Positions 29,855 through 52,918 of a DNA stretch of 64,000 nucleotides are shown here, one piece after another. The stretch lies in NCBI RefSeq assembly GCF_014297445.1, contig NZ_JACORU010000005.1:62001-126000 (forward strand), read 5' to 3'. The notes beneath the pieces were generated by a model, which worked only from the letters and a program-made list of their open reading frames with translations, did not search any database and had not been told where the DNA came from. The DNA comes from Ramlibacter albus. GTDB lineage: Bacteria > Pseudomonadota > Gammaproteobacteria > Burkholderiales > Burkholderiaceae_C. Both the position numbers and the translations under genes were made by a program. Positions within the stretch are counted from its first letter, which is position 1; each line of letters opens with the position of its first letter.

Positions 29855-31165
29855 ATGAACGCGCCGGAAACCCTCACCCGCTGGTCCACCCCGGGCTCCA
29901 GCCGCGTGCCCTTCTGGGCCTACACGGACGCGCAGCTGTACCGGCGCGAGCTCGACCGCATCTTCTACGGGCCCCACTGGTGCTACGTCGGGCTCGAGGT
30001 CGAGGTGCCGAATGTCGGCGACTACAAGCTCAGCTGGGTCGGTGAGCGTTCGGTGATCCTGGTGCGCGACCGCGTGGCGCCGAAGGACCGCGGCACCGAC
30101 ACCGGCATCCGCGTGGTCGAGAACCGCTGCGCACACCGCGGCGTGCGCTTCTGCCAGCAGCCGCACGGCAACGCACGCAGCTTCGTCTGCCCGTACCACC
30201 AGTGGACGTACAAGCTCAATGGCGAACTGGCGGGCCTGCCGTTCAAGGACGGCGTGAAGGACGGCGACTGCGTCAACGGCGGCATGCCGGCGGATTTCGA
30301 CGTGAAGCAGCATGGCTTGACGAAGCTGCGCGTCGCCGTGCTGCACGGGCTGGTGTTCGCCACCTTCAGTGAGGATGCCGAGCCGTTGGAGCAGTACTTC
30401 GGCCCGAACGTCATGCCGTGGCTGGACCGCATCTTCAAGGGCCGGCAGCTCACGCTCCTGGGCTACAACCGCCAGCGCATCCCGGGCAACTGGAAGCTGA
30501 TGATGGAGAACATCAAGGACCCGTACCACCCGGGCCTGCTCCACACCTGGTTCGTCACCTTCGGGCTCTGGCGCGCCGACCAGAAGAGCCGCATGGTGAT
30601 GGACGAACACGGCCGCCACGCGGTGATGATCTCGCGCCGCAACGAGGGCGGCGAGAACAAGACCGTGACCGAGGGCGTCACCAGCTTCAAGCAGAACATG
30701 GCGCTCAACGACACGCGCTTGCTCGACGTGGTGCCGGAGCCGTGGTGGAAGGTGCCCGACCCGTCGAACCCCGGCAGCGACATCATGCCGACGGTGACGA
30801 TGATCACGCTGTTCCCCTCGCTCATCATCCAGCAGCAGGTGAACTCGCTGTCCACGCGGCACATCGTGCCGCGCGGCGAGGGCGAGTTCGACTTCGTGTG
30901 GACGCATTTCGGGTTTGCGGACGACAGCGAGGAGATGACGCGCCGCCGGTTGCGGCAAGCCAACCTATTCGGCCCGGCGGGCTTCGTCAGCGCCGATGAC
31001 GGCGAGGTGATCGAGTTCAGCCAGCAGGGCTTCGCGCAATGGGGCGAGGACGGCGAGACCTTGTGCGAGCTGGGAGGCACCGGCACCGGCGGCACCGAGC
31101 ACATGGTCACGGAGACCCTCATCCGCAGCATGTATGCCTACTGGAAGAAGGTGATGGCCGAATGA
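29855..31165 (+). CDS. Rieske aromatic-ring hydroxylating oxygenase, alpha subunit
   Basis: 436 residues. The Rieske [2Fe-2S] ligands are Cys92, His94, Cys112 and His115 (CAHRG and CPYHQW). The mononuclear iron site is KDPYHPGLLH with His225 and His230, and Asp222 as the bridging residue. The sequence around ENIKDPYHPGLLH resembles the salicylate 5-hydroxylase (NagG)/anthranilate dioxygenase branch. Electrons must come from a ferredoxin and reductase not encoded here. It overlaps the beta gene by ATGA. TATTAT lies 9 bases before the ATG. The substrate is uncertain. Confidence 0.95.
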   Translation: MNAPETLTRWSTPGSSRVPFWAYTDAQLYRRELDRIFYGPHWCYVGLEVEVPNVGDYKLSWVGERSVILVRDRVAPKDRGTDTGIRVVENRCAHRGVRFCQQPHGNARSFVCPYHQWTYKLNGELAGLPFKDGVKDGDCVNGGMPADFDVKQHGLTKLRVAVLHGLVFATFSEDAEPLEQYFGPNVMPWLDRIFKGRQLTLLGYNRQRIPGNWKLMMENIKDPYHPGLLHTWFVTFGLWRADQKSRMVMDEHGRHAVMISRRNEGGENKTVTEGVTSFKQNMALNDTRLLDVVPEPWWKVPDPSNPGSDIMPTVTMITLFPSLIIQQQVNSLSTRHIVPRGEGEFDFVWTHFGFADDSEEMTRRRLRQANLFGPAGFVSADDGEVIEFSQQGFAQWGEDGETLCELGGTGTGGTEHMVTETLIRSMYAYWKKVMAE

Positions 31166-39584: not shown

Positions 39585-40469
39585 ATGTCCGACCCCGCCA
39601 TCGACGGCTTCATCGACGCGCTCTGGCTGGAAGAGGGCCTGGCGAAGAACACGCTGGCCGCCTACCGGCGCGACCTCGCGCTGTACGCGCGCTGGCTGAA
39701 GGAGAACCGCGGCAAGGGGCTCGATGCGAGCGAGGTGCACGACCTCGAGGGCTACCTCGCCGCGCGCCGCGCGGGCAAGAACAGCTCCGCGCAGCGGCGC
39801 CTGACCGTGTTCAAGCGCTACTTCCGCTGGGCCGTTCGCGAGCGGCTCATCGTGGCCGACCCGACGCTCAAGCTCGTCCCGCCCAAGCGCATGCCGCGCA
39901 ACATCAAGACGCTGACCGAGGCGCAGGTGGAGGCGCTGCTGGCCGCGCCCGACGTGGACACACCGCTGGGCCTGCGCGACCGCACGATGCTGGAGCTGGT
40001 GTACGCGAGCGGCCTGCGCGTGAGCGAGCTCGTCACGCTCAAGACCTTCGCCCTCAGCTTCAACGAGCACGTGCTGCGCGTCACCGGCAAGGGCAGCAAG
40101 GAGCGGCTCGTGCCGTTCGGGCAGGTCGCCTCCGACTGGCTGAAGCGCTACATGGCCGAAGCGCGCGGGGCGATCCTCGCCGGGCAGCAGACCGAGGACC
40201 TGTTCGTCACCGCGCGCGGCGCCGGCATGACGCGGCAGATGTTCTGGGAGGTGGTGAAGAAGCACGCGCGCGCCGCCGGCATCACGCAGCCGCTGTCGCC
40301 GCACACGCTGCGCCACGCCTTCGCCACGCACCTGCTCAACCACGGCGCGGACCTGCGCGCGGTGCAGATGCTGCTCGGGCACGCCGACATCTCCACCACC
40401 ACCATCTACACGCACGTCGCGCGCGAGCGGCTCAAGAGCCTGCACGCGCAGCACCACCCGCGCGGGTAG
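39585..40469 (+). CDS. xerD: Site-specific tyrosine recombinase XerD
   Basis: 294 residues. N-terminal SAM-like domain, then the catalytic domain with Arg in ASGLRVSELV, Lys in GKGSKERLVPF, His-x-x-Arg in HTLRHAFATHLL, His in LLGHADIS and nucleophile Tyr in TTIYTHV. It resolves chromosome dimers with XerC. It is chromosomal and not next to mobile-element genes, so it is the housekeeping enzyme rather than an integron or phage integrase. Confidence 0.95.
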   Translation: MSDPAIDGFIDALWLEEGLAKNTLAAYRRDLALYARWLKENRGKGLDASEVHDLEGYLAARRAGKNSSAQRRLTVFKRYFRWAVRERLIVADPTLKLVPPKRMPRNIKTLTEAQVEALLAAPDVDTPLGLRDRTMLELVYASGLRVSELVTLKTFALSFNEHVLRVTGKGSKERLVPFGQVASDWLKRYMAEARGAILAGQQTEDLFVTARGAGMTRQMFWEVVKKHARAAGITQPLSPHTLRHAFATHLLNHGADLRAVQMLLGHADISTTTIYTHVARERLKSLHAQHHPRG

Positions 40470-42230
40470 TCAGGCGGTTGCGGCGAGCAGCTCGCGCAGG
40501 GCCGCGGCTGGCAGCGGCTTGTGCAGCAGCTTGCGGCCCGCGTTGCGCGCTTTGAGCAGGCGCTCCGGCGCCGTGTCGCCGCTGACCAGCACGCCGGGCG
40601 TCGGCCCGGCGACCGCCTCGACCCGCTCGAACACGCGCAGCCCGCTGTCGTCGCCGCGCAGGCGGAAGTCCGCCAGCACGAGGTCGGGCGGGTCCGACGC
40701 CGCAGCGGCGGCGGCTTCCTCGGAGCTCGACGCCTCCGAGCAGCGGCAACCCATCTCCTCCAGCAGCATGCGCATGCTCGTGCGCACCGCGGCCTCGTCG
40801 TCGACCAGCAGCACGTGCAGGTCGAACCGGTCCTGTGTGTCCGCCCGCGGCTGCGCCGGGAGGGCGGGCGGCGCGGCCGTGCGCGCCAGCACGAGGCGGA
40901 ACGTCGTGCCTGCGCCGGGCGCGGATTCCAGCCGCAGGCGAACCCCCAGCACTTCGCAAAGGCGCCGCACGATCGACAACCCGAGGCCCAGGCCCTTGGA
41001 GCGGTCGCGTTCCGGGTTGCCGGCCTGGAAGAATTCCACGAACACCTCTTCGTGCAGCTGCTCGGGGATGCCGATGCCGGTGTCGCTGACGCGGATCTCC
41101 ACGTCGTCGCCCACGTCGCGCACCGCGATGGCGATGCTGCCCTGCGGCGTGAACTTCAACGCGTTGTCGGTGAGGTTGCGCAGCACGCGGCGCAGCAGCT
41201 GCTCGTCCACCAGCACGTTGGCCTCGCTGCTCACGTCGAGCCGCGCGTCGAGCCCGCGCGCGCGAATGAGCGGCTCCACCTCGGCGAAGTGCCGCCGCAC
41301 CAGGGCGGCGGCCGGCACGGCCTGTGGCCTCACGTCCACCACACCCGCATCGAGCTTGGACACGTCCAGCAGGCTGTCCAGCTGCTCGCCGAGCGCCTGC
41401 GCCACTTCGGAAAGCATGCCGACCATGCGCGCGCTGCGCTCGTCCAGCGGGCGCATCTCCAGCGCCGAAGCCAGCACCATCACCGCGTGCAGCGGCTGGC
41501 GCAGGTCGTGGCTGGCGGAGGCGAGGAAGCGCGTCTTGCTCTTGTTCGCACGTTCGGCGTCCGCCAGTGCCTCCTGCAATTGCGCGACGAGCTCCTGCTC
41601 GCGAAACCGGATCAGGCACGACTCGCGGAAGGTCTGCCAGGTCGACTTGCCGAACCCGAGCAGCATCAGCGCGTACAGGACGACGAGGATGGCGCTGCCG
41701 ACGCCGATCAGGGGGCGCGCGTGCGTGTTCGGCAGCACGGCCCACAGCACGAGCAGCGGCACCATGATCGGCCCGCCGTACGCGACGATCGAGCCACGGT
41801 AGCCGGCGGACGTGCTGATCGATCCCGTGGCACAGGCGATCAGCACGATCGTCGCGAACGCCCGCTCGGCGACGTCCAGCGCGGGAAACGCCGCGAGGAA
41901 CAGCGCGAGCACGCTGCCGTGCAGCACCGAGATACCGAGGCGCTTGCGCACGCGAAGCTGCCAGTCGCCCGACGCCGGGTCGGCCAGCGCCAGGATCACG
42001 CGGCGGATCGCCAGCTGCGTCCCCACCACCGCCACGACCCAGCCGGCGGCCAGCCACGCCGGCACGTAGGGCCACGCGATGACCGCCAGCACGCTCGCGC
42101 CGACCACGATGCCCAGTGCCGAGCGCCATTGCACCACCGCGCCCAGCCGCAGGAATTCGTCCATGACGAACGCCTGCGCGGCGGGGTTCGCGCCCTCAGT
42201 GGATGCGGACGCCGCGGCGGGCTGCGACAT
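40470..42230 (-). CDS. Membrane hybrid histidine kinase/response regulator
   Basis: 586 residues. About six membrane segments in residues 35-195 form the sensor. Then a kinase core with His241 in SASHDLRQPLHA, N-box LTDNALKFTPQG, DTGIGIPE and GLGLGLSIVRRL. A C-terminal receiver has LLVDDE and Asp in LADFRLRG, ending in a phospho-Lys motif HKPLPA. It overlaps the LuxR regulator gene by 35 bases. This looks like a phosphorelay in which the receiver is a side or intermediate acceptor. The signal is unknown. Confidence 0.94.
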   Translation of the reverse strand: MSQPAAASASTEGANPAAQAFVMDEFLRLGAVVQWRSALGIVVGASVLAVIAWPYVPAWLAAGWVVAVVGTQLAIRRVILALADPASGDWQLRVRKRLGISVLHGSVLALFLAAFPALDVAERAFATIVLIACATGSISTSAGYRGSIVAYGGPIMVPLLVLWAVLPNTHARPLIGVGSAILVVLYALMLLGFGKSTWQTFRESCLIRFREQELVAQLQEALADAERANKSKTRFLASASHDLRQPLHAVMVLASALEMRPLDERSARMVGMLSEVAQALGEQLDSLLDVSKLDAGVVDVRPQAVPAAALVRRHFAEVEPLIRARGLDARLDVSSEANVLVDEQLLRRVLRNLTDNALKFTPQGSIAIAVRDVGDDVEIRVSDTGIGIPEQLHEEVFVEFFQAGNPERDRSKGLGLGLSIVRRLCEVLGVRLRLESAPGAGTTFRLVLARTAAPPALPAQPRADTQDRFDLHVLLVDDEAAVRTSMRMLLEEMGCRCSEASSSEEAAAAAASDPPDLVLADFRLRGDDSGLRVFERVEAVAGPTPGVLVSGDTAPERLLKARNAGRKLLHKPLPAAALRELLAATA

Positions 42231-42837
42231 AGACGGCTTCGGCGCGCGAGTGCACCTGCAGTTCGTCGAAGACGGCGCGCACGTGCGACTTCACCGTCTC
42301 CGGCGAGAGGCCCAGGTGGCGCGCGATCAGCTTGTTGGAGTGCCCGCGCAGCATCGCGCGCAGCACGTCGCACTGGCGCGCGGTGAGGCCGGGGAAGGCG
42401 TCGGCCAGCTCCAGCTGCCCGCCCGCGGTGGCAGGCGCGCCGGCGGTTTCCAGCGCCGCCGCCGGCAGGAAGAGGGCGCCGCGCGCCAGCGTGGCCAGCG
42501 CAGCGCGAAACTCCTGCTTGGAAGCGTCCTTCGGGATGAAGCTGGCGGCGCCCAGTTCGACGGCCCTGCGCACCAGGTGCATGTCGCGCTCGCCGGAGAC
42601 GATGACGATCGTCGACTCGGCGGCGGCTTCGTGCAGTGCCACGAGCGCGGCTTCACCGGTGAGGCCGCGCAGGTGCCAGTCCAGCAGGATGAGGTCGAAC
42701 GGCGTTCGCGAGGCCAGCGCCATCGCCTCCTCGGCCGAGCCGCACACGGAGACCGCGAGCTTGCCGTCGATCTCCTCCAGCACCAGCTTGAGCCCCTCGG
42801 CGAACAGCGCGTGGTCGTCGCAAATCAGGATTCGCAT
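42196..42837 (-). CDS. LuxR/NarL-type response regulator
   Basis: 213 residues. Receiver with CDDH, phospho-acceptor Asp in LLDWHLRGL (near 54) and Lys in IPKDAS. LuxR helix-turn-helix: GLTARQCDVLRAML and LGLSPETVKSHVRAVF. It is co-transcribed with and upstream of the hybrid kinase, its likely partner. Start ATG at 42837, MRILICDDHALF. Confidence 0.95.
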   Translation of the reverse strand: MRILICDDHALFAEGLKLVLEEIDGKLAVSVCGSAEEAMALASRTPFDLILLDWHLRGLTGEAALVALHEAAAESTIVIVSGERDMHLVRRAVELGAASFIPKDASKQEFRAALATLARGALFLPAAALETAGAPATAGGQLELADAFPGLTARQCDVLRAMLRGHSNKLIARHLGLSPETVKSHVRAVFDELQVHSRAEAVYVAARRGVRIH

Positions 42838-42903
42838 GTGTCGGGCGCATTCTAGGGGGCCCGGCGACGGCGCCGTGGGCGGCTCGCTCCAGGCGGGCCC
42901 GTG

Positions 42904-43656
42904 TCACCCAGGCGCTGATTTCCTGAACCTCATCGAGAGGCTGAATCTCTCGGCCGGGTACACGATCCGCCCGGACAGGATCAGGCTTCCATCGGCCAGG
43001 TAGTACCGACGCACCACTTCCATGCCCGGCCCGCCTTCGCTGGCGGAAAGCAACCCGGCTTCGGCCTGCGTGAGCAGCGTCGCCCGCGCGTCCTGCCGGA
43101 TCTCGTCGATCTCCACGCCGTATTCGCGCGCCAGCATCACGTGCGTGGCGCCATCGAGCTGCAGCAGGTGCTCCTGCACGCCGGGGTACCAGTCGCGCAG
43201 GTAGATCTCGGTCACGCCGAGCGGCACACCGTCGGAGCGGCGATGGCGCACACCCTGGATGTGGTGCCAGCCCGAACCGTCGGTGCATTCCAGCAGCGCC
43301 GCCTGTTCGCCGGTGACGACGATCTTGCGGATGCCGGAGATTCGCAGCTTCGCTTCGTGCGCGTATTCCGCGAGTTCGGACAAGGAGTTGATCGAATACG
43401 CGAAGTGCGCCTTCGGTGCCTGCTGCACGACGCGCGTACCGACGCCCGGCTGGCGCTCCACCAGCTTCAGTTGGGTGAGGTGGCGCAGCGCCTCGCGGAT
43501 CGTCTGGCGGCTGCGCTGGAACTCCTCGCTGAGCTGGTGCTCCGTGGGCAGGAGGCCGCCGACGGGGTACGCGCCCGACGCGATGCGCGACATCAGGGTG
43601 GCGGCGATTCGTGCGTGCTGGGGCTGGTGGCCGTTGGTAGTCCCGTTCTCCTGCAT
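42904..43656 (-). CDS. GntR-family regulator, HutC/UTRA subfamily
   Basis: 250 residues. Winged helix: LPTEHQLSEEFQRSRQTIRE (near 37-56). UTRA ligand domain about 90-240, with WHHIQGVRHRR and VTEIYLRDWYP. HutC-type repressors release DNA on binding a pathway metabolite. It is the last gene of the BKACE operon, overlapping the aldolase gene by TGATG. Its probable operators are at 47251-47286. Confidence 0.94.
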   Translation of the reverse strand: MQENGTTNGHQPQHARIAATLMSRIASGAYPVGGLLPTEHQLSEEFQRSRQTIREALRHLTQLKLVERQPGVGTRVVQQAPKAHFAYSINSLSELAEYAHEAKLRISGIRKIVVTGEQAALLECTDGSGWHHIQGVRHRRSDGVPLGVTEIYLRDWYPGVQEHLLQLDGATHVMLAREYGVEIDEIRQDARATLLTQAEAGLLSASEGGPGMEVVRRYYLADGSLILSGRIVYPAERFSLSMRFRKSAPG

Positions 43657-44468
43657 CACGCGATGTTAAGGCTGGCCGCCACGTCGGCCCGCCGGCGCTC
43701 CATGGCCAGGCTCATCATCCGGCGGTCGCCGCCGATCCAGAAGATGGTGACGCCCATCTCGCGCCAGAAGGCGGCTTCCTTTCGCAGGCCCTCGGAGTCG
43801 GTCGCGAGCAGCACGGCCACGCTGTCGATGCCCCGCTTCGATGCCGCACCCACGATGCGCCGCAACGCGGCGACCACTTCGGGGTGCGCCATGTCCGCCT
43901 TGTGGCCCATCGCCTGCGCGAGGTCGAAGGGCCCGGGGACGATGGCGGAGATGCCGGGTACGTCGAGGATCGCATCGATGTTCTGCACGCCCTCGAAATC
44001 CTCGATCAGCAGCCAGACCTGCGTGTTCTCGTTGGACCACTTCGCGAAAGCGGGCCAGTCGCGCGCGAGGTGCCAGTTGGCGCGGGTGCTGGGGCAGGAG
44101 CCCCGCGCGCCGTGGCCGCTGTCGTCGAGGTACTTCGCGGCGCGGGTGATGGCGCGCGCCTCATCGGCTGTCTTCACGTTCGGCACGATCACGCCCATGG
44201 CGCCCGCGTCGAGCGCGCGCAGCACGTGGTGCGGCGTGTGGTCGGGGATGCGCACGAAGGGCGTGATGCCGACGCCGTCGGCGGCCCGCAGCATCTCCGT
44301 CACCCGGTCGAAGGCGAGGGAGCCGTGCTCGCAATCGAGCACGACGAAGTCGAGGCCGGCCACCCCGGCCATCTCGACGTTGTCCGGGCTGCCGGTCTGG
44401 ATGATCACGCCCAGCGGCGACTCGCCCCGCTCACGCTTTTGCTTCACGAGGTTGGTTCTCTGTTTCAT
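43656..44468 (-). CDS. HpcH/HpaI-family aldolase/citrate lyase beta-like protein
   Basis: 270 residues. The family uses Mg2+ or Mn2+ to cleave or form C-C bonds with pyruvate or oxaloacetate-like keto acids, sometimes CoA esters. VLDCEHGSLAFD (active-site His), FVRIPDHTPHHVLRALDAGAMG, LIEDFEGVQNID (metal Glu) and VPGPFDLAQAMG are visible. It lies 15 bases after the BKACE gene and probably handles a downstream product. The substrate is not determined. Confidence 0.92.
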   Translation of the reverse strand: MKQRTNLVKQKRERGESPLGVIIQTGSPDNVEMAGVAGLDFVVLDCEHGSLAFDRVTEMLRAADGVGITPFVRIPDHTPHHVLRALDAGAMGVIVPNVKTADEARAITRAAKYLDDSGHGARGSCPSTRANWHLARDWPAFAKWSNENTQVWLLIEDFEGVQNIDAILDVPGISAIVPGPFDLAQAMGHKADMAHPEVVAALRRIVGAASKRGIDSVAVLLATDSEGLRKEAAFWREMGVTIFWIGGDRRMMSLAMERRRADVAASLNIA

Positions 44469-44483
44469 GCTTCTCTCGTTTCT

Positions 44484-45365
44484 TCAGGGTGTCATTCCGA
44501 GCAGGGCGCGCGTCTCGGCAACGGTGGCCGCGCGGCGGCGGCCGGCCAGCGCCTGTTCGGCGGTCAGCTGCACGAGCTGTGCGTTCGTGGGGCAGCCAAG
44601 TTCGGCATAGGCGTAGTCGCCGATGCCCGTCGAGACATGGCCGCCGCGCTCGATGGCCGCCGCGGCCACGTCGACGAGGTTGCCTTCGCGGCAGCACACC
44701 GACCATTCGAGCCTTCGCTGCGGCAGGAAGCGCAGGAGCGAATCCAGGCCGTCCACCGTGCCGGGGTGGCCGCCGAGGATGCCGCCCTCGGTGAGGACAA
44801 GGCACAGCAGCGCCGGGTCGTCGCGGACCCAGCCCGCCTGCACGAAGGTGTCCACCGTGCGCAGGCACGGGACGGTCCAGATGCACATCAGCTCCTTCAG
44901 GCCGAGCCGCTGCACTTCGCCGGCCAGCTGCTTGAGCGTCCCGACGGTGTTCACGTACGTCTTCGCCTGCGTGGTGAAGTCGCCGCGCGCGGCATCGAAC
45001 TGGTCGAGGTTGGTGCTGCCCATGTCGAGCGGCGCGAAGTCGGGCCTCGTCGCCTCGTCCTCGCACAGCCGCGCGAGAGGGGCGATGCGTGTCGCTGCGT
45101 CCGGCGTCACGACGCCCGCCATCGTCGGATGGATCAGCACGTCGCAGCGCTCGCGGATCAGGCGGATGGCCTCCGCGTACAAACCCACGTCGTGCGCGGG
45201 CGAGCCGTCGCCGTTGCGCACATGGAAGTGCACGATGGCCGCGCCCGCTTTCCAGCAGGCGTAGGCGTCCTCGGCGATCTCCCGCGGTGACCAAGGCACG
45301 TGCGGGTTCTTCTGCCGCAGCGACCACTCGTTCAGCCGCGCCTCGATGATGACCGGTTTCGCCAT
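44484..45365 (-). CDS. BKACE (beta-keto acid cleavage enzyme) family protein, paralogue 1
   Basis: 293 residues, TIM barrel of the 3-keto-5-aminohexanoate cleavage enzyme family, which condenses a beta-keto acid with acetyl-CoA to give acetoacetate and a new acyl-CoA. The zinc histidines are present (His46 and His48 in VHFHVRN). The third usual ligand, a Glu in a VGxED motif, is Gly249 here (STGIGDYAY). The Asn-rich C-terminal GCPTNAQLV is typical. Overlaps the Bug gene by TGATG. Substrate cannot be predicted from motifs alone. Confidence 0.9.
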   Translation of the reverse strand: MAKPVIIEARLNEWSLRQKNPHVPWSPREIAEDAYACWKAGAAIVHFHVRNGDGSPAHDVGLYAEAIRLIRERCDVLIHPTMAGVVTPDAATRIAPLARLCEDEATRPDFAPLDMGSTNLDQFDAARGDFTTQAKTYVNTVGTLKQLAGEVQRLGLKELMCIWTVPCLRTVDTFVQAGWVRDDPALLCLVLTEGGILGGHPGTVDGLDSLLRFLPQRRLEWSVCCREGNLVDVAAAAIERGGHVSTGIGDYAYAELGCPTNAQLVQLTAEQALAGRRRAATVAETRALLGMTP

Positions 45366-46339
45366 CAATCGGCCTTGACGCCGATCTTGCGGATCAGGTC
45401 CGTCCACTGCGCGGTTTCGCTGCGCACGGTGGCGTCCAGCTCCTCCGGCGTGGAGGCGATGACGTTGATACCCAGCTTCACCTGCTTGTCCTTCAGCTCC
45501 GGGCGGTTCAGCGCCACCTTGATCTCGTCGCTGACCTTGCGGACGATGTCATTGGGGGTGCCCGCGGGCGCGAACATCGCGAGCCATGACGTGGACGCGT
45601 AACCCGGTACACCGGCCTCGGCGATCGTCGGCAGGTCCTGCAGCACGGGCGAGCGCGTCGCGCCCGTCCACGCGATCGGCTTGATCAGCCCGGCGCGGAT
45701 GTTGGGCAGCGAGGTGGAGATCGCATCGAACATCAGCTGCACGTGGCCGCCGATCAGGTCCTGCATCGCGGGGGCCGTGCCCTTGTACGGAATGTGCTCC
45801 AGCTTCGTGCCCGCGAGCGAGTTGAACAGCTCGCCGCTCAGGTGGTTCACGCCACCGGCGCCGGAGGAGCCGAAGGCCACCTTCGAGGGATTCTTCTTCG
45901 CGTACTCGATGAGCTCCTTCACGTTCTTCACGGGCAGCGAGGGCGTGGCCACCAGGATCACCGGCAGGTTGACGAGCAGCGAGACACCGCGCAGTTCCTT
46001 CGGGTCGTAGGGCAGCTTGGGGTACAGGCCCGGCACGATCGAGAAGTGGCTGCTGGTGACCAGGAAGGTGTAGCCGTCGGCGGGCGCTTTCGCCACCGCC
46101 GCGGTGCCCACGGTGCTGCCCGCGCCGGGGCGGTTCTCCACCACGAAGGGTTGGCCGAACTTCGCCGTGAGCGCCTGCGCCACGTCGCGCGCGGTGAGGT
46201 CCGTCGAGCCGCCGGCCGGGAAGGGCACGATGATCTTCACGGGCTGGCTGGGCCACGGCGCCTGCGCCTGCGCACCGGCCGCGAACGCGCCTAATACCGC
46301 GGCGGCGATGATGCGGCGGCGGGTCAACTTCGATGTCAT
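45365..46339 (-). CDS. Bug-family substrate-binding protein of the BKACE operon
   Basis: 324 residues; leader RRRIIAAAVLGAFAAGAQAQA. Bug elements: IIVPFPAGGSTDLTARDVAQ, IPYKGTAPAMQDLIGGHVQ and FAPAGTPNDIV. It sits between the two BKACE genes and overlaps both, so it is almost certainly the uptake receptor for the substrate of this operon. No TctA/TctB partner is encoded here. Confidence 0.96.
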   Translation of the reverse strand: MTSKLTRRRIIAAAVLGAFAAGAQAQAPWPSQPVKIIVPFPAGGSTDLTARDVAQALTAKFGQPFVVENRPGAGSTVGTAAVAKAPADGYTFLVTSSHFSIVPGLYPKLPYDPKELRGVSLLVNLPVILVATPSLPVKNVKELIEYAKKNPSKVAFGSSGAGGVNHLSGELFNSLAGTKLEHIPYKGTAPAMQDLIGGHVQLMFDAISTSLPNIRAGLIKPIAWTGATRSPVLQDLPTIAEAGVPGYASTSWLAMFAPAGTPNDIVRKVSDEIKVALNRPELKDKQVKLGINVIASTPEELDATVRSETAQWTDLIRKIGVKAD

Positions 46340-47238
46340 GCCTTGTCTCCTTGGGTGCGGGTGATGAGGCCCAGGGCCTCTTGCGGTGTCGCGACGCGGC
46401 GGCCGCTCGCACGGGCGATGCGTGCGATCTCGGCCACCAGTTCCTCGTTGCGCGGCGTGCGCTCGCCGCCGAAATCCTCGATGCCGACGCGCACGTGGCC
46501 GCCGCGCCCGATCGCGAGCTGCGCCAGGCCGTCGGCGGGGCTGCCGTCGCGCAGCGTGACCATCCAGGGGATCGTTTCGCTGTCGAACAGGCGCAGCCAG
46601 GCCTCGAGGCCGACGGCGTCCGGGGAGAGGCCGAAGAGGCGGGCGCCGGCGCTGAACTCGAGCTTGACGATGCAAGCGCGTGGCAAGGTGCCTGCATTGG
46701 CGTGCGCCTGCACGAGCCGCGCGAAGCCGGGCTCGAACAGCGACATCGTGCAGGCGAGATCGCGCTCGCGGCAGAACTCGAAAGCCCACGCCACGTCGGC
46801 AAACGTCGTCTGGTAGACCTGGTCGTGCGTGGGCGCGCGGCCTTGCGCGTCGATGCGGCCGTAGTTCATGGTGCCGGGGTCGACCGGGACGATTTCGCAC
46901 AAGCCGGCGTCCGCGAGCTCGGCCACGTGCCCGAGGCGCGCCGCCATCGTCGTGCCGGGGCCGCCGCCGGGCAGCGTCGGGTACATCAGCAGGCTGGGGT
47001 GGAATTCGCGCACCCGGCGAAACGAGCGCAGGTAAGCCGAGCTGCCGTGATGGCCGCTGCCGCCGACGACGGCTTCGCCCGCATGTGCATGCACGATCGA
47101 GGCGCCCGCCTCGACGCACGCGAGGATCGAGTCCACGATCTCCTCTTCCGCGAGGGGGACGTGCGGGTTGGCGCGCTTGTCGCGGGCCCCGTTGATCGCG
47201 ACTTCGATCAGGACGGGCCGGGCGTCTTCGGTGGGCAA
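46336..47238 (-). CDS. BKACE family protein, paralogue 2
   Basis: 300 residues. TIM-barrel BKACE: IEVAINGARDKRANPHVP, GxSIVHAHAG with His50 and His52, PGTMNYG, and Glu254 in VGIEDFGGER. The usual VR after the HxH pair is AG, so its active site differs from paralogue 1 in a different place. The start is TTG with AGGAAG 6 bases before it; no ATG or GTG fits the family N-terminus. First gene of the operon, 12 bases after operator 1. Confidence 0.9.
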   Translation of the reverse strand: MPTEDARPVLIEVAINGARDKRANPHVPLAEEEIVDSILACVEAGASIVHAHAGEAVVGGSGHHGSSAYLRSFRRVREFHPSLLMYPTLPGGGPGTTMAARLGHVAELADAGLCEIVPVDPGTMNYGRIDAQGRAPTHDQVYQTTFADVAWAFEFCRERDLACTMSLFEPGFARLVQAHANAGTLPRACIVKLEFSAGARLFGLSPDAVGLEAWLRLFDSETIPWMVTLRDGSPADGLAQLAIGRGGHVRVGIEDFGGERTPRNEELVAEIARIARASGRRVATPQEALGLITRTQGDKA

Positions 47239-47250
47239 GGGGGTCTTCCT

Positions 47251-47286
47251 GTTTGTCTAGACAAACTCTAGTTTGTTCGGACAAAC
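47251..47286. promoter_or_regulatory. Tandem GntR/HutC operators
   Basis: Operator 1, GTTTGTCTAGACAAAC (47251-47266), is a perfect 16-bp palindrome containing GTCTAGAC, which matches the HutC consensus GT-N-TA-N-AC. Operator 2, GTTTGTTCGGACAAAC (47271-47286), keeps both 6-bp arms. The centres are 20 bp (two helical turns) apart. They sit between the BKACE operon and the SDR gene, beside a HutC-type regulator gene in the same operon. Confidence 0.88.
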
Positions 47287-47329
47287 TCCGCAAGAGAAGA
47301 ATCACTGCTCTGCATCAGGAGGCATTGAG

Positions 47330-48103
47330 ATGACGAATTTCGATCTGGCCGGCCGCACGGCCCTGGTCACAGGCGGTTTCGGCGGGCTGGGCCTGCATTT
47401 CGCGCAGGTCCTGGCACGGCAGGGCGCGCGCGTTGCGCTCGTGGGCCGCCGCGTCGAATTGGGGCAACAAGCTGCGGCGGCGCTGTCGCAATCGGTCGGG
47501 CGCCCGGGCGACGTCCGCGCGTTCGCCATGGACGTCACCGATCCGCGCAGCGTGGAGGACGGCTTTGCCCACGCGAAGGCCGAGCTCGGCGTGCCGACGA
47601 TCGTCGTCAACAACGCGGGCATCGTTGCCCGCGCCCCCGCGATCGAAATGAAGGACGACGACTGGCGCAACGTCATCGACGTCAACCTCACCGGCGTTTT
47701 CCGCGTCGCCCGGGCCGCGGCGAAAACGATGGTGGCTGCCGGCGTCGGCGGCAGCCTCATCAATATCGCTTCGATCCTCGGCTTGCGCGTGCGGGCCGGC
47801 GTCGCCCCCTACACCGCCACGAAGGCCGCGGTCGTTCAACTCACGCATGCGCTCGCGCTGGAATGGGCCGAGCACGGTATCCGCGTCAACGCGCTCGCGC
47901 CGGGCTACTTCGCCACCGACATCAACCGCGACCTGCTGCAGTCGCCGACCGGGCAGGCGATCATCTCGCGGGTGCCGCAAAAGCGTGCCGGGAAGCTCGA
48001 TGAACTCGACGGCCCCCTGCTGCTGCTGGCGTCCGATGCTTCCTCGTACATGACCGGCACTGTCCTGCCCGTCGACGGCGGGCACCTGGTCAGCACCCTC
48101 TGA
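47330..48103 (+). CDS. Short-chain dehydrogenase/reductase divergent from the BKACE operon
   Basis: 257 residues. VTGGFGGLG nucleotide loop (near 14-22), VNNAGI (near 96), catalytic Ser in NIASILG and YTATKAA. Typical of 3-hydroxyacyl or beta-hydroxy-acid dehydrogenases; oxidation of a beta-hydroxy acid would supply the beta-keto acid for BKACE. AGGAGG lies 7 bases before the ATG. Shares the operator region with the divergent operon and is probably co-regulated. Confidence 0.94.
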   Translation: MTNFDLAGRTALVTGGFGGLGLHFAQVLARQGARVALVGRRVELGQQAAAALSQSVGRPGDVRAFAMDVTDPRSVEDGFAHAKAELGVPTIVVNNAGIVARAPAIEMKDDDWRNVIDVNLTGVFRVARAAAKTMVAAGVGGSLINIASILGLRVRAGVAPYTATKAAVVQLTHALALEWAEHGIRVNALAPGYFATDINRDLLQSPTGQAIISRVPQKRAGKLDELDGPLLLLASDASSYMTGTVLPVDGGHLVSTL

Positions 48104-48114
48104 GCCGGGCGCGG

Positions 48115-48657
48115 CTACGCCTTGTCCGGCTCGATCCGCTTCGCGATCAGGTCCGCCACCGCGCGCAGCCGCCACACGTCCTGCAGCGACACGTCCTCGT
48201 TGACGTGGAAGGCGAACGCGCAGAGCGTGCCGAACACCTGCCCGTCGCTCAGCACCACCGGCACGCTCAGGTGGGTGCCGATGCCCTTGCCGCTCGGGGG
48301 CGCCTCACCCGATTCGACCAGCGGCGCCGCGTCGTGGATGTACTGCGGCAGGCGGCCGTTGACGATGCGGTGGCACCAGCTCTCCTCGAGCGGGTCGCCA
48401 TGGCCGGGGCGCACGTGCCCGGCGGTGCGCGGCGCGGCATCCACGGCCTTGAAGATGCGCTGGCCGTTTTCGAAACGTGAGACGAAGACCACGTCCATCT
48501 TCATCCGGCTGCGCAGGACGGCCAGCACCTTGTGGACGTTCTCGTCGAGCGCGGCGTCGCCGCGGTGGTCGGCGGTGGCCACGAGCAGGCCGTAGGCCTG
48601 CGCGACCAGCGGGTCGTCCTGGGGCGCGCTCATCTTCCTCGACGTCTCCTCGTCCAT
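48115..48657 (-). CDS. Stand-alone GAF-domain protein
   Basis: 180 residues, almost entirely one GAF domain (about 40-175), with DVVFVSRFENGQRIFKAV, ESWCHRIVNGRLP and THLSVPVVLSDGQVFGTLC. No output domain. It may sense a small ligand or redox signal (Cys in WCHR) or modulate a partner. An internal ATG at 48633 (MSAPQ) is an alternative start. Convergent with the SDR. Confidence 0.88.
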   Translation of the reverse strand: MDEETSRKMSAPQDDPLVAQAYGLLVATADHRGDAALDENVHKVLAVLRSRMKMDVVFVSRFENGQRIFKAVDAAPRTAGHVRPGHGDPLEESWCHRIVNGRLPQYIHDAAPLVESGEAPPSGKGIGTHLSVPVVLSDGQVFGTLCAFAFHVNEDVSLQDVWRLRAVADLIAKRIEPDKA

Positions 48658-51024: not shown

Positions 51025-51867
51025 CTATTCAGCCGGCACGGGTCGCTCCGGCGGGCCGTCGTACGTCCAGATGTATTGCCGGGGGATCGGCCCCTTGTTG
51101 CGGCCGCCTTGCTGGGTCTGCTCCCACGCATGGGCAAGGATGCCGACCGAGCGGGAGATGCAGAAGAGGCCTCGCGCCAGCGGCGCCGGGAAACCAAGCT
51201 CCGCATAGATCACGGCCGTGGCGCCGTCGATGTTCATCGGGATCCGCCGGCCCCCTTTGCGCGCAGCCAGTTCATCCTCGACCGCACGCGCAATCCGGGC
51301 GAAGCGTCCGCTGACGGCGCCTTGCTTCGCTGCTTCGTCCACCAACTCGAGCAGGCGAGCGGCCCTGGGATCGACCGGGTGGAAGCGGTGCCCGAACCCG
51401 GACACGAACTTGCCGCGCAGCTCGATCGCCTCGTCCAGCCCCTCCCGCACCGCCTGCGCGAGATCGCTGCCGGCATCGACGCGCGCGGCGATCGACTCGT
51501 ACATCTCGACGGCTTGCTCACCGGCGCCGCCGTGCACGTCCCCCAGCACGTTGACGGCCGACGCCATCGCGTTGTTCAGGCCGACCCCGCACGTGGCCGC
51601 CATGCGCGCGATGCCGATGCTCGGGGCTTGCGGCCCGTGGTCCACGGCAGCCATCAAGGCGGCTTCCAGCAATTCGCCCTGCGCCTTCGTCGGCAGGTCG
51701 CCTCGGGTCATCAGCCACACCATCTGCGCGAAGTTGACTCGGCCGATCAACTGCTCGATGGGGTATCCACGGTAGCGGATTACGCCCGGGGACATGTCGA
51801 TGATGGACGTGCGCCACCAATCCCTGGTGGCTTGTTCCGCGCTCTTCGGTTCTTGCTGGGTGCTCAT
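51025..51867 (-). CDS. Short citrate-synthase-family protein (citryl-CoA lyase-like)
   Basis: 280 residues, about 150 shorter than citrate synthase. The conserved segments are PIEQLIGRVNFAQMVWLM, GVGLNNAMASAVNVLGDVHGGAGE, and FGHRFHPVDPRAARLLELV. The small N-terminal domain is missing, as in proteins annotated citryl-CoA lyase. It could cleave or make a citryl-type CoA ester. It is convergent with the thioesterase. Substrate unknown. Confidence 0.82.
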   Translation of the reverse strand: MSTQQEPKSAEQATRDWWRTSIIDMSPGVIRYRGYPIEQLIGRVNFAQMVWLMTRGDLPTKAQGELLEAALMAAVDHGPQAPSIGIARMAATCGVGLNNAMASAVNVLGDVHGGAGEQAVEMYESIAARVDAGSDLAQAVREGLDEAIELRGKFVSGFGHRFHPVDPRAARLLELVDEAAKQGAVSGRFARIARAVEDELAARKGGRRIPMNIDGATAVIYAELGFPAPLARGLFCISRSVGILAHAWEQTQQGGRNKGPIPRQYIWTYDGPPERPVPAE

Positions 51868-51979
51868 ACGCGATCTTCTCCTCACGAAAGTGCTTGATGC
51901 CGGTCGATGTATAGCCCAACTCCGCCAGAAGCGGTGCCGACGCCCCGGTGCTATCGTTGCGCCGCAAGCAGGAGACTCC

Positions 51980-52918
51980 ATGATCGTCCGTGACCGGCCC
52001 CATGGCTTGCAGCTGATCTTCACGCTGCGCGGCTCTGTGCTGCCGCACATCGTGGGCAAGCTGGCCATCTGCACGGCTTTCGCGATCGTCGTGACCATCA
52101 CGCATGGCGTCCTGTACGAGGAGAAGGTCGCGCTGACGGCGGCGCCGTTCTCGTTGATCGGGCTGGCGCTGGCGATCTTCCTCGGTTTTCGCAACAGCGC
52201 CGCCTACGACCGCTACTGGGAAGCGCGCAAGCTGTGGGGCGACCTGGTCTACCGGTCGCGCGCGCTGGCGCGCCAGTTGCAGTCGCTCACCACGCTGGCG
52301 TCACCGGCCGCGCCCGACGATGGCGCGGACGTGCGCCGCGCCATCATGCTGCGCGCGATCGCGTTCGCATCGACGCTGCGCCACGAACTCCGCGGCACCG
52401 ACGCAGCCGCCGACTTGCGCCGCCTGCTGCCGGCCGATGAAGCGGCGGCCGGCGCCACGGCGGCGCGCGGCAGCGACTACCTGCTGCGGCGCATGGCGCT
52501 GGACCTCGGCAGCCTGGTGCGGGCCGGGCACTTGCAAGCACCGCTGGCCGCGAACATCGACGACTCGCTCACCGCCATGGGCGCGGTCGCGGCCGGCTGC
52601 GAGCGGATCCAGCGCACGCCGATCCCTTTCGCGTACACGTTGCTGCTGCACCGCACGGCGTGGCTGTACTGCCTGCTGCTGCCCTTCGGGCTGGTGGACA
52701 CCGTGGGCGCGATGACGCCGTTCGTGGTCGTGATCGTCGCGTACACGTTCTTCGGCCTGGCGGCGCTGGGCGACGAGATCGAGGAGCCCTTCGGCACCGC
52801 GGACAACCACCTGCCGCTGGACGCGCTGTGCCGCGAGATCGAAGCGAGCGTGCTGGACGCCCTGGGCGTGCGCGAGCTGCCGCCGCGGCTGGTGCCGGTG
52901 GATGGGCGGCTGACGTGA
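51980..52918 (+). CDS. Bestrophin-family membrane channel
   Basis: 312 residues, four hydrophobic segments. The FLGFRNSAAYDRYWEAR block (near 66-82), PFAYTLLLHRTAWLYCL and GDEIEEPFG are hallmarks of bacterial bestrophins (YneE-like), which form pentameric ion channels. AGGAG lies 6 bases before the ATG. Divergent from the citrate-synthase-like gene. Confidence 0.93.
   Translation: MIVRDRPHGLQLIFTLRGSVLPHIVGKLAICTAFAIVVTITHGVLYEEKVALTAAPFSLIGLALAIFLGFRNSAAYDRYWEARKLWGDLVYRSRALARQLQSLTTLASPAAPDDGADVRRAIMLRAIAFASTLRHELRGTDAAADLRRLLPADEAAAGATAARGSDYLLRRMALDLGSLVRAGHLQAPLAANIDDSLTAMGAVAAGCERIQRTPIPFAYTLLLHRTAWLYCLLLPFGLVDTVGAMTPFVVVIVAYTFFGLAALGDEIEEPFGTADNHLPLDALCREIEASVLDALGVRELPPRLVPVDGRLT

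Follow-up and report, generated by a model that had tools for sequence, protein, structure and literature searches.

A rare GntR-linked operon of Ramlibacter albus with two divergent DUF849 proteins, tentatively assigned to polycarboxylate catabolism

The window analyzed here, a stretch of 64,000 nucleotides from Ramlibacter albus (contig NZ_JACORU010000005.1, positions 62,001 to 126,000), contains at 42904-48103 six genes that an initial annotation described as a divergent catabolic unit built around two beta-keto acid cleavage enzymes (BKACEs). The gene families named there are confirmed, as each gene exceeds the Pfam cut-off for its family in a profile search. Five genes are on the minus strand in the order BK2-Bug-BK1-HpcH-GntR. 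The first, BK2 (46336-47238), has a TTG start and encodes a DUF849 protein (PF05853, the BKACE family, 160.8 bits for a cut-off of 24.8 bits). It is followed by a Bug/TctC-type solute receptor of 324 residues (45365-46339; PF03401, 247.3 bits), by BK1, a second DUF849 protein of 293 residues from a branch resembling the cis-epoxysuccinate hydrolase CESH[D] (44484-45365; PF05853, 204.9 bits), by an HpcH/HpaI class II aldolase of 270 residues (43656-44468; PF03328, 112.8 bits) and, as the last operon gene, by a GntR family regulator of the HutC type with a UTRA ligand domain (42904-43659; PF00392, 63.9 bits; PF07702, 57.8 bits). Three of the four junctions are stop/start overlaps (ATGA for BK2/Bug, TGATG for Bug/BK1, GTGATG for HpcH/GntR): the Bug gene is overlapped by its neighbors at both ends and the GTG start of the GntR gene overlaps the HpcH stop, while 15 bp separate BK1 from HpcH. 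On the plus strand, across a divergent gap of 91 bp from BK2, lies a classical short-chain dehydrogenase/reductase (SDR) of 257 residues (47330-48103; PF13561, adh_short_C2, 198.7 bits). BK1 and BK2 are the sole PF05853 matches in the genome at E<=0.001. No NCBIfam match shown reaches its cut-off for any of the six genes (for the SDR, among the best 25 of 229 families), and a consensus scan of 42600-48200 returned neither a sigma-70-like promoter nor a terminator-like site.

The best solved relative of BK1 is the cis-epoxysuccinate hydrolase CESH[D] of Bordetella sp. BK-52 (PDB ID 5zmu; E-value 2.5e-92, 312.7 bits), to which it is ~50% identical, the best BKACE scoring 75 bits. BK1 was aligned with CESH[D] and with the BKACE Kce of Cloacamonas, whose residue numbering we take to be the chain number minus 6. 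For Tyr145 this numbering is confirmed by PMC12871164. In the alignment the BKACE positions R226, E230, E143 and Y145 are occupied in BK1 by Ser, Gly, Cys and Trp, respectively: H46, H48 and D231 of the BKACE metal site are kept, while its R226 and E230, as well as the base E143 and Tyr145, are absent. Conversely, the CESH[D] residues R11, E14, H47, H49, D115, W164, H200 and D251 are all found in BK1. According to PMC6429283, CESH[D] keeps just two of the three Kce metal ligands, in agreement with the present alignment, and uses Glu14 as the third one; D115 and E190 are described as catalytic, R11 is said to donate the proton, with D251 supporting it. BK1 therefore harbors the metal ligands H47, H49 and E14 together with R11 and D251. 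The catalytic pair is incomplete, D115 being kept while residue 190 is a valine in BK1 and in its orthologues in the two other loci carrying the same module (3/3 modules, see below).

A residue census covers 54 DUF849 rows (the L007 fragment of two amino acids being dropped from 55), an uneven sample because BK1 led to most of these rows and some are closely related. The 19 rows without R226 all possess R11, E14 and H200; the other 35 have R226, with E230 in 35/35 and R11 in none. In a tree of 50 rows, from which L007 and the over-long open frames L032, L034, L035 and L037 were excluded, BK1 groups with the CESH-like rows in a single branch (support 95/95), within which it forms a lineage of its own (100/98), apart from the remaining CESH-like rows (83/74). 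CESH[D], L038, L039 and L056, the four of the 19 that have E190, form their own clade (100/99), and BK1 is outside it. Both DUF849 proteins share the Pfam family and the TIM barrel of the BKACEs (Kce; BKACE15 of Paracoccus), but the AlphaFold2 model of BK1 (four sequences, pLDDT 83.3) has 5zmu as its nearest structure (TM-score 0.88, 49-50% identity) and is clearly more distant from Kce (TM-score 0.81-0.83, 24-26% identity). The assignment of BK1 as a proven CESH was rejected in view of the valine at E190. Since the BKACE residues and E190 are both absent, BK1 is, as judged from its residues, not a canonical BKACE and not a proven CESH either. No characterized member of the R11/E14 branch other than CESH[D] was encountered.

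BK2 is divergent in another manner. Together with its two orthologues it keeps the complete BKACE metal site (H46, H48, R226, E230 and D231, in the motif RVGIED), while Ser replaces the base E143 and Phe replaces Y145; a Glu occupies the position of CESH E190. In the tree, the three BK2 proteins stand apart (100/100) with a single long-branched Massilia row, L059. The E171L mutation abolished the activity of BKACE15 (PMC11961710), and this E171 is presumably the equivalent of Kce E143, because the pairing of Tyr173 with Tyr145 is given in PMC12871164. The same source describes this Tyr as present in all BKACE sequences. Here, 13 of the 35 R226-type rows have no Tyr145 and 8 of the 35 have no E143 (the three BK2s being counted in both), which makes Tyr145 a weak mark of BKACEs. 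Of the 23 places listed for BK2 relatives outside its own genome, 19 were examined, and all 19 (31-37% identity) display Ala at 143 and Met at 190 while keeping Tyr145, R226, E230 and D231. The loss of E143 thus marks a whole BK2-like group, which may employ a different base. BK2 itself is likely inactive as a BKACE; DUF849 groups classified as “not BKACE” are on record in PMC4922564, one of them with decarboxylation activity. Its AlphaFold2 model (three sequences, pLDDT 80.8) is a TIM barrel for which DUF849 structures are the best matches: 5zmu has the best E-value (1.3e-18), and the TM-scores with 5zmu (0.74), Kce (0.73) and 3e49 (0.75) are about equal. By sequence score, 5zmu ranks above Kce for BK1 and BK2 alike. 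A heteromeric BK1/BK2 enzyme was considered and set aside, as nothing spoke for or against it. As a side observation, an SDR gene adjoins a BK2-like gene (Ala at 143) in the short loci L074, L076 and L077 of other Burkholderiales, which are closer to the idea of an SDR working with a BKACE than is the core of the operon in the window.

The core BK2-Bug-BK1-HpcH with an adjacent GntR gene is present in all three genomes in which the module was found, which belong to two families: the window itself and two 16.9-kb loci from Alcaligenaceae bacterium CAII-56 (L003) and Piscinibacter sakaiensis (L004). The gene order is identical in L004, and in L003 the regulator is at the other end (GntR-BK2-Bug-BK1-HpcH). 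Identities of the L003 and L004 proteins to those of the window are 80-85% for HpcH, 72-73% for BK1, 63-65% for BK2, 62-70% for Bug and 54-59% for GntR. Neither locus contains a match to the SDR at E<=1e-5; its position in L004 is occupied by a divergent alpha/beta hydrolase, and its best match in the genome G850, taken to be that of P. sakaiensis, is 43% identical, whereas a paralogue encoded in the window's own genome reaches 55%. Because it is absent from the L003 and L004 loci, the SDR is outside the conserved unit and probably a local add-on. The five-gene module is rare. Genomes with a BK1 match at E<=1e-40 number 8 out of 399 for the order, 3 out of 398 for the phylum and 2 out of 299 for the family, the own genome being counted each time, and at the level of 70% identity only the own genome and G850 remain in these sets. 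Within the genus, the BK1 matches listed for 36 other genomes do not exceed 38% identity (best E-value 8.2e-20), while a pattern-limited scan of an 84,980-species collection yielded five loci, two of them with the module. In a distant DNA search, coverage of the complete operon stays below 80% for every record, and the 20 records listed out of 242 match only the SDR or Bug gene. Against plasmid records, the best places of BK1, BK2 and HpcH are all below 60% identity, and the plasmid relatives H41 and H21 of HpcH and BK2 have a different gene setting. A recent horizontal gain was examined through base composition and rejected, the G+C content being 69.0% for the operon and 69.3% for the window.

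The gap between BK2 and the SDR gene contains two operator-like palindromes, TTTGTCTAGACAAA at 47252-47265, 13 bp away from the start codon of BK2, and TTTGTTCGGACAAA at 47272-47285, 20 bp further, start to start. Both are copies of the pattern TTTGTNNNNACAAA, for which the mean number of matches is 0.00 in 100 shuffles of the window and which has no further exact match in the 6,147,598-base (6.15-Mb) assembly, where a backward control pattern gave zero matches. The looser form TTGTNNNNACAA occurs within the window at the same two places only, at least two sites being obtained in 2 of 100 shuffles. Two TTGTNNNNACAA sites, 20 bp apart, are located upstream of BK2 in L003 (at least two sites in 1 of 200 shuffles), and L004 has two one-mismatch sites, 19 bp apart, at the same place before BK2 (at least two in 9 of 200 shuffles); the L004 form, WTGTAYGTACAW, occurs in G850 at the operon site only. 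A paired palindrome thus precedes BK2 in 3/3 modules, with spacings of 20, 20 and 19 bp. The regulator has the helix-turn-helix and UTRA domains of HutC-type GntR proteins, and the local palindromic site, to which it is predicted to bind, is kept along with its orthologues. A local, self-regulating GntR circuit acting on this putative operator pair is well supported, because the pair is unique in the genome and recurs with the GntR orthologues in L003 and L004. The view of the six genes as one regulated divergent unit is consequently upheld as regards the layout, the dedicated GntR and the palindrome pair in the gap facing the SDR, and has to be amended as regards the SDR, which is outside the conserved core.

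The HpcH protein has the class II aldolase profile and contains the H48, R73, E156 and D182 motifs, corresponding to what we take to be the metal and catalytic residues (His, Arg, Glu, Asp) of this family. Its best NCBIfam match is GarL, at 120.1 bits for a cut-off of 406.75. The nearest profiles of the SDR are gluconate 5-dehydrogenase and KduD, its best NCBIfam match being equally below the cut-off (226.1 versus 279 bits); around two of its plasmid relatives, most neighbors are fatty-acid genes or unrelated ones.

Other members of the BK1 branch are found in acid-sugar and dicarboxylate contexts. In L060 and L061, isoapionate loci of rhizobial plasmids, the CESH-like DUF849 gene stands beside OiaX, a RuBisCO-like protein, and a four-carbon acid sugar kinase, and L040 and L055 also combine a CESH-like gene with RuBisCO-like and four-carbon acid sugar kinase genes. 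CESH-like DUF849 genes are part of OiaX/RuBisCO-like/kinase loci in both rhizobia and Burkholderiales. The CESH-like proteins of the isoapionate loci possess the same R11/E14 set as BK1; these loci differ from the operon in that kinase and RuBisCO-like genes take the place of HpcH, Bug and BK2. In L038, a locus of an Octadecabacter plasmid, a TRAP transporter, an MR/MLE enolase-family member and a CoA ester lyase accompany an E190-type CESH-like gene, and this gene run (3781-9827 of L038) is a candidate natural cis-epoxysuccinate/D-tartrate operon. In L039, a GntR regulator (named NanR), a Bug and an Ldh family protein are encoded near the CESH-like gene. Four loci of one Burkholderiales genus (L050, L051, L053 and L054) cluster aconitase-like, MR/MLE, PEP mutase/ICL, MmgE/PrpD, PdxA, HpcH and several Bug genes with a CESH-like gene, as established by Pfam on L054, the only one of the four for which Pfam was run; this cluster is a candidate polycarboxylate pathway. 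By tblastn, HpcH is detected in 8 of 13 long-context CESH-like loci, namely two modules, four loci of one genus, L055 (~5 kb away) and L005 (a weak, distant match). The link between HpcH and CESH-like genes is suggestive and falls short of independent proof.

The operon could be substrate-induced and GntR-controlled, and serve to break down a small (~C4-C6) di- or tricarboxylate of the hydroxylated or epoxy kind, a tentative reading judged to have a little less than an even chance of being right. Starting from the observed gene layout, palindromes and residue sets of BK1 and BK2, we infer every reaction of the following scheme. GntR would keep the two divergent transcripts repressed until its UTRA domain is occupied by a ligand, and outside the cytoplasmic membrane the acid would be captured by Bug. 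BK1, as a metal enzyme relying on Glu14 and two His, with Arg11 and Asp115, may add or remove water or hydrolyze a C-O bond without acetyl-CoA. BK2, with a Kce-type metal site devoid of the Glu143 base, may carry out a decarboxylation or another C-C cleavage. HpcH would act last, cleaving a 4-hydroxy-2-oxo acid to release an aldehyde together with pyruvate or a relative of it, and the SDR, as a local add-on, might bring in or remove one related alcohol. With rather less confidence, it can be proposed that BK1 and BK2 represent two DUF849 reactions other than acetyl-CoA-dependent cleavage, feeding HpcH in an undescribed pathway for hydroxylated polycarboxylates, and that the R11/E14 branch is a wider catabolic group tuned at residue 190 (Glu, Val, His or Asn).

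Several points weigh against this polycarboxylate scheme. The chemistry of HpcH and Bug is not deducible from sequence. BK1 has Val at the catalytic E190 and, at 193, Glu instead of the Asp of CESH[D]; water activation in the CESH[D] manner is therefore not assured. The loss of E143 in BK2 may signify another base rather than another reaction, because its 19 distant relatives without Glu143 still keep Tyr145. Finally, tblastn finds no HpcH in 5 of the 13 long-context loci (L038, L039, L040, L052 and L056), although L038 has an annotated CoA ester lyase, and the annotations of L060 and L061 list none.

Four other explanations have to be weighed. A pathway for a branched or four-carbon sugar acid, similar to that for isoapionate, in which the CESH-like DUF849 protein would act on a beta-keto or phosphorylated sugar acid, is unlikely while retaining an appreciable chance. 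The RuBisCO-like (or OiaX) and kinase genes near the CESH-like genes in L040, L055, L060 and L061 point to it, as do the nearest profiles of HpcH (GarL) and of the SDR (gluconate 5-dehydrogenase); yet these NCBIfam matches are under their cut-offs, none of the six genes is a kinase or RuBisCO-like gene, and residue 190 is His or Asn in those loci versus Val in BK1. The route originally proposed, in which the SDR oxidizes a beta-hydroxy acid to a beta-keto acid, which (or the product of which) both BKACEs then cleave with acetyl-CoA, appears improbable. It can invoke the PF05853 membership of BK1 and BK2, the R226, E230 and D231 kept in BK2, the SDR next door in 3 of 19 BK2 relatives (L074, L076 and L077) and a precedent in the oxidative deoxyribonate pathway, which proceeds by SDR oxidation followed by BKACE cleavage (Price et al. 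2019, PMC6365646). As described in that source, this pathway resembles the operon in that genes for a regulator and for transport accompany those for the SDR and the BKACE. It differs in having a single BKACE, in that the genes named include neither an HpcH aldolase nor a Bug and, in P. bryophila, in a regulator of the AraC type instead of GntR. In the operon, the SDR accompanies the DUF849 genes in just 1/3 modules. Its absence from the two others argues against SDR oxidation as the entry step, and acetyl-CoA-dependent cleavage by both proteins is doubtful because key BKACE residues are missing from each: E230 (a metal ligand), R226, E143 and Y145 from BK1, E143 and Y145 from BK2. “BKACE” hence holds for the two paralogues as a Pfam name only.

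Somewhat less probable still is an operon for cis-epoxysuccinate or a close analogue, in which BK1 would be a CESH producing a tartrate-type diol for the other enzymes of the operon to break down. BK1 is nearest to CESH[D] by both sequence and fold and contains R11, E14, H47, H49, D115, W164 and D251; the valine at Glu190 in 3/3 module BK1s, the exclusion of BK1 from the E190 clade and the lack of any tartrate dehydratase-like gene among the operon genes by Pfam are unfavorable to it. An ordinary HutC-regulated operon in which the DUF849 pair is a degenerate leftover without catalytic role would account for the missing BKACE residues in BK1 and BK2, but is very improbable, as both proteins have intact frames and recur in the two other modules at 62-74% identity, along with their alternative residues.

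SDR plus BKACE catabolism is known already, and so is a DUF849 enzyme with divergent chemistry, BsfD of flavophos biosynthesis. As in BK2, Phe replaces the BKACE Tyr in BsfD, whose reaction is a different one; as presented in PMC12871164, it still uses acetyl-CoA and is biosynthetic, unlike the role proposed for BK2. A pathway with the gene set of the operon is not described in the open-access literature searched. The idea of an SDR preceding a BKACE is not new by itself because of the deoxyribonate route (PMC6365646). The pathway as originally drawn probably needs redrawing.

The operon is a compact case for learning the function of the R11/E14 branch. In the plasmid records listed, “3-keto-5-aminohexanoate cleavage protein” is the name given to most PF05853 proteins, and it is probably wrong for this branch. 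CESHs serve in the commercial production of tartaric acids (PMC10869282), and a search of the review PMC6429283 yielded no natural role for them. The operon provides a sister lineage of CESH[D] that comes with a transporter receptor, an aldolase and a regulator sensing a ligand, all of its own, and its natural substrate is therefore testable through the ligands of Bug and of the UTRA domain.

Other genes of the window deserve a brief mention. Directly left of the GntR gene and on the same strand, 40470-42837 encodes a hybrid histidine kinase, whose nearest profile is the NahK/ErcS family (278.5 bits, under the cut-off of 400), and a NarL-like response regulator. A XerD site-specific recombinase, scoring above its cut-off, is encoded at 39591-40469. 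An AndAc-like Rieske oxygenase large subunit is encoded at 29855-31165 (365.7 bits, under the equivalog cut-off of 750). At 3 kb to the right of the operon, a citryl-CoA lyase-like gene is located at 51028-52005 (NF004864, 474.1 bits for a cut-off of 261).

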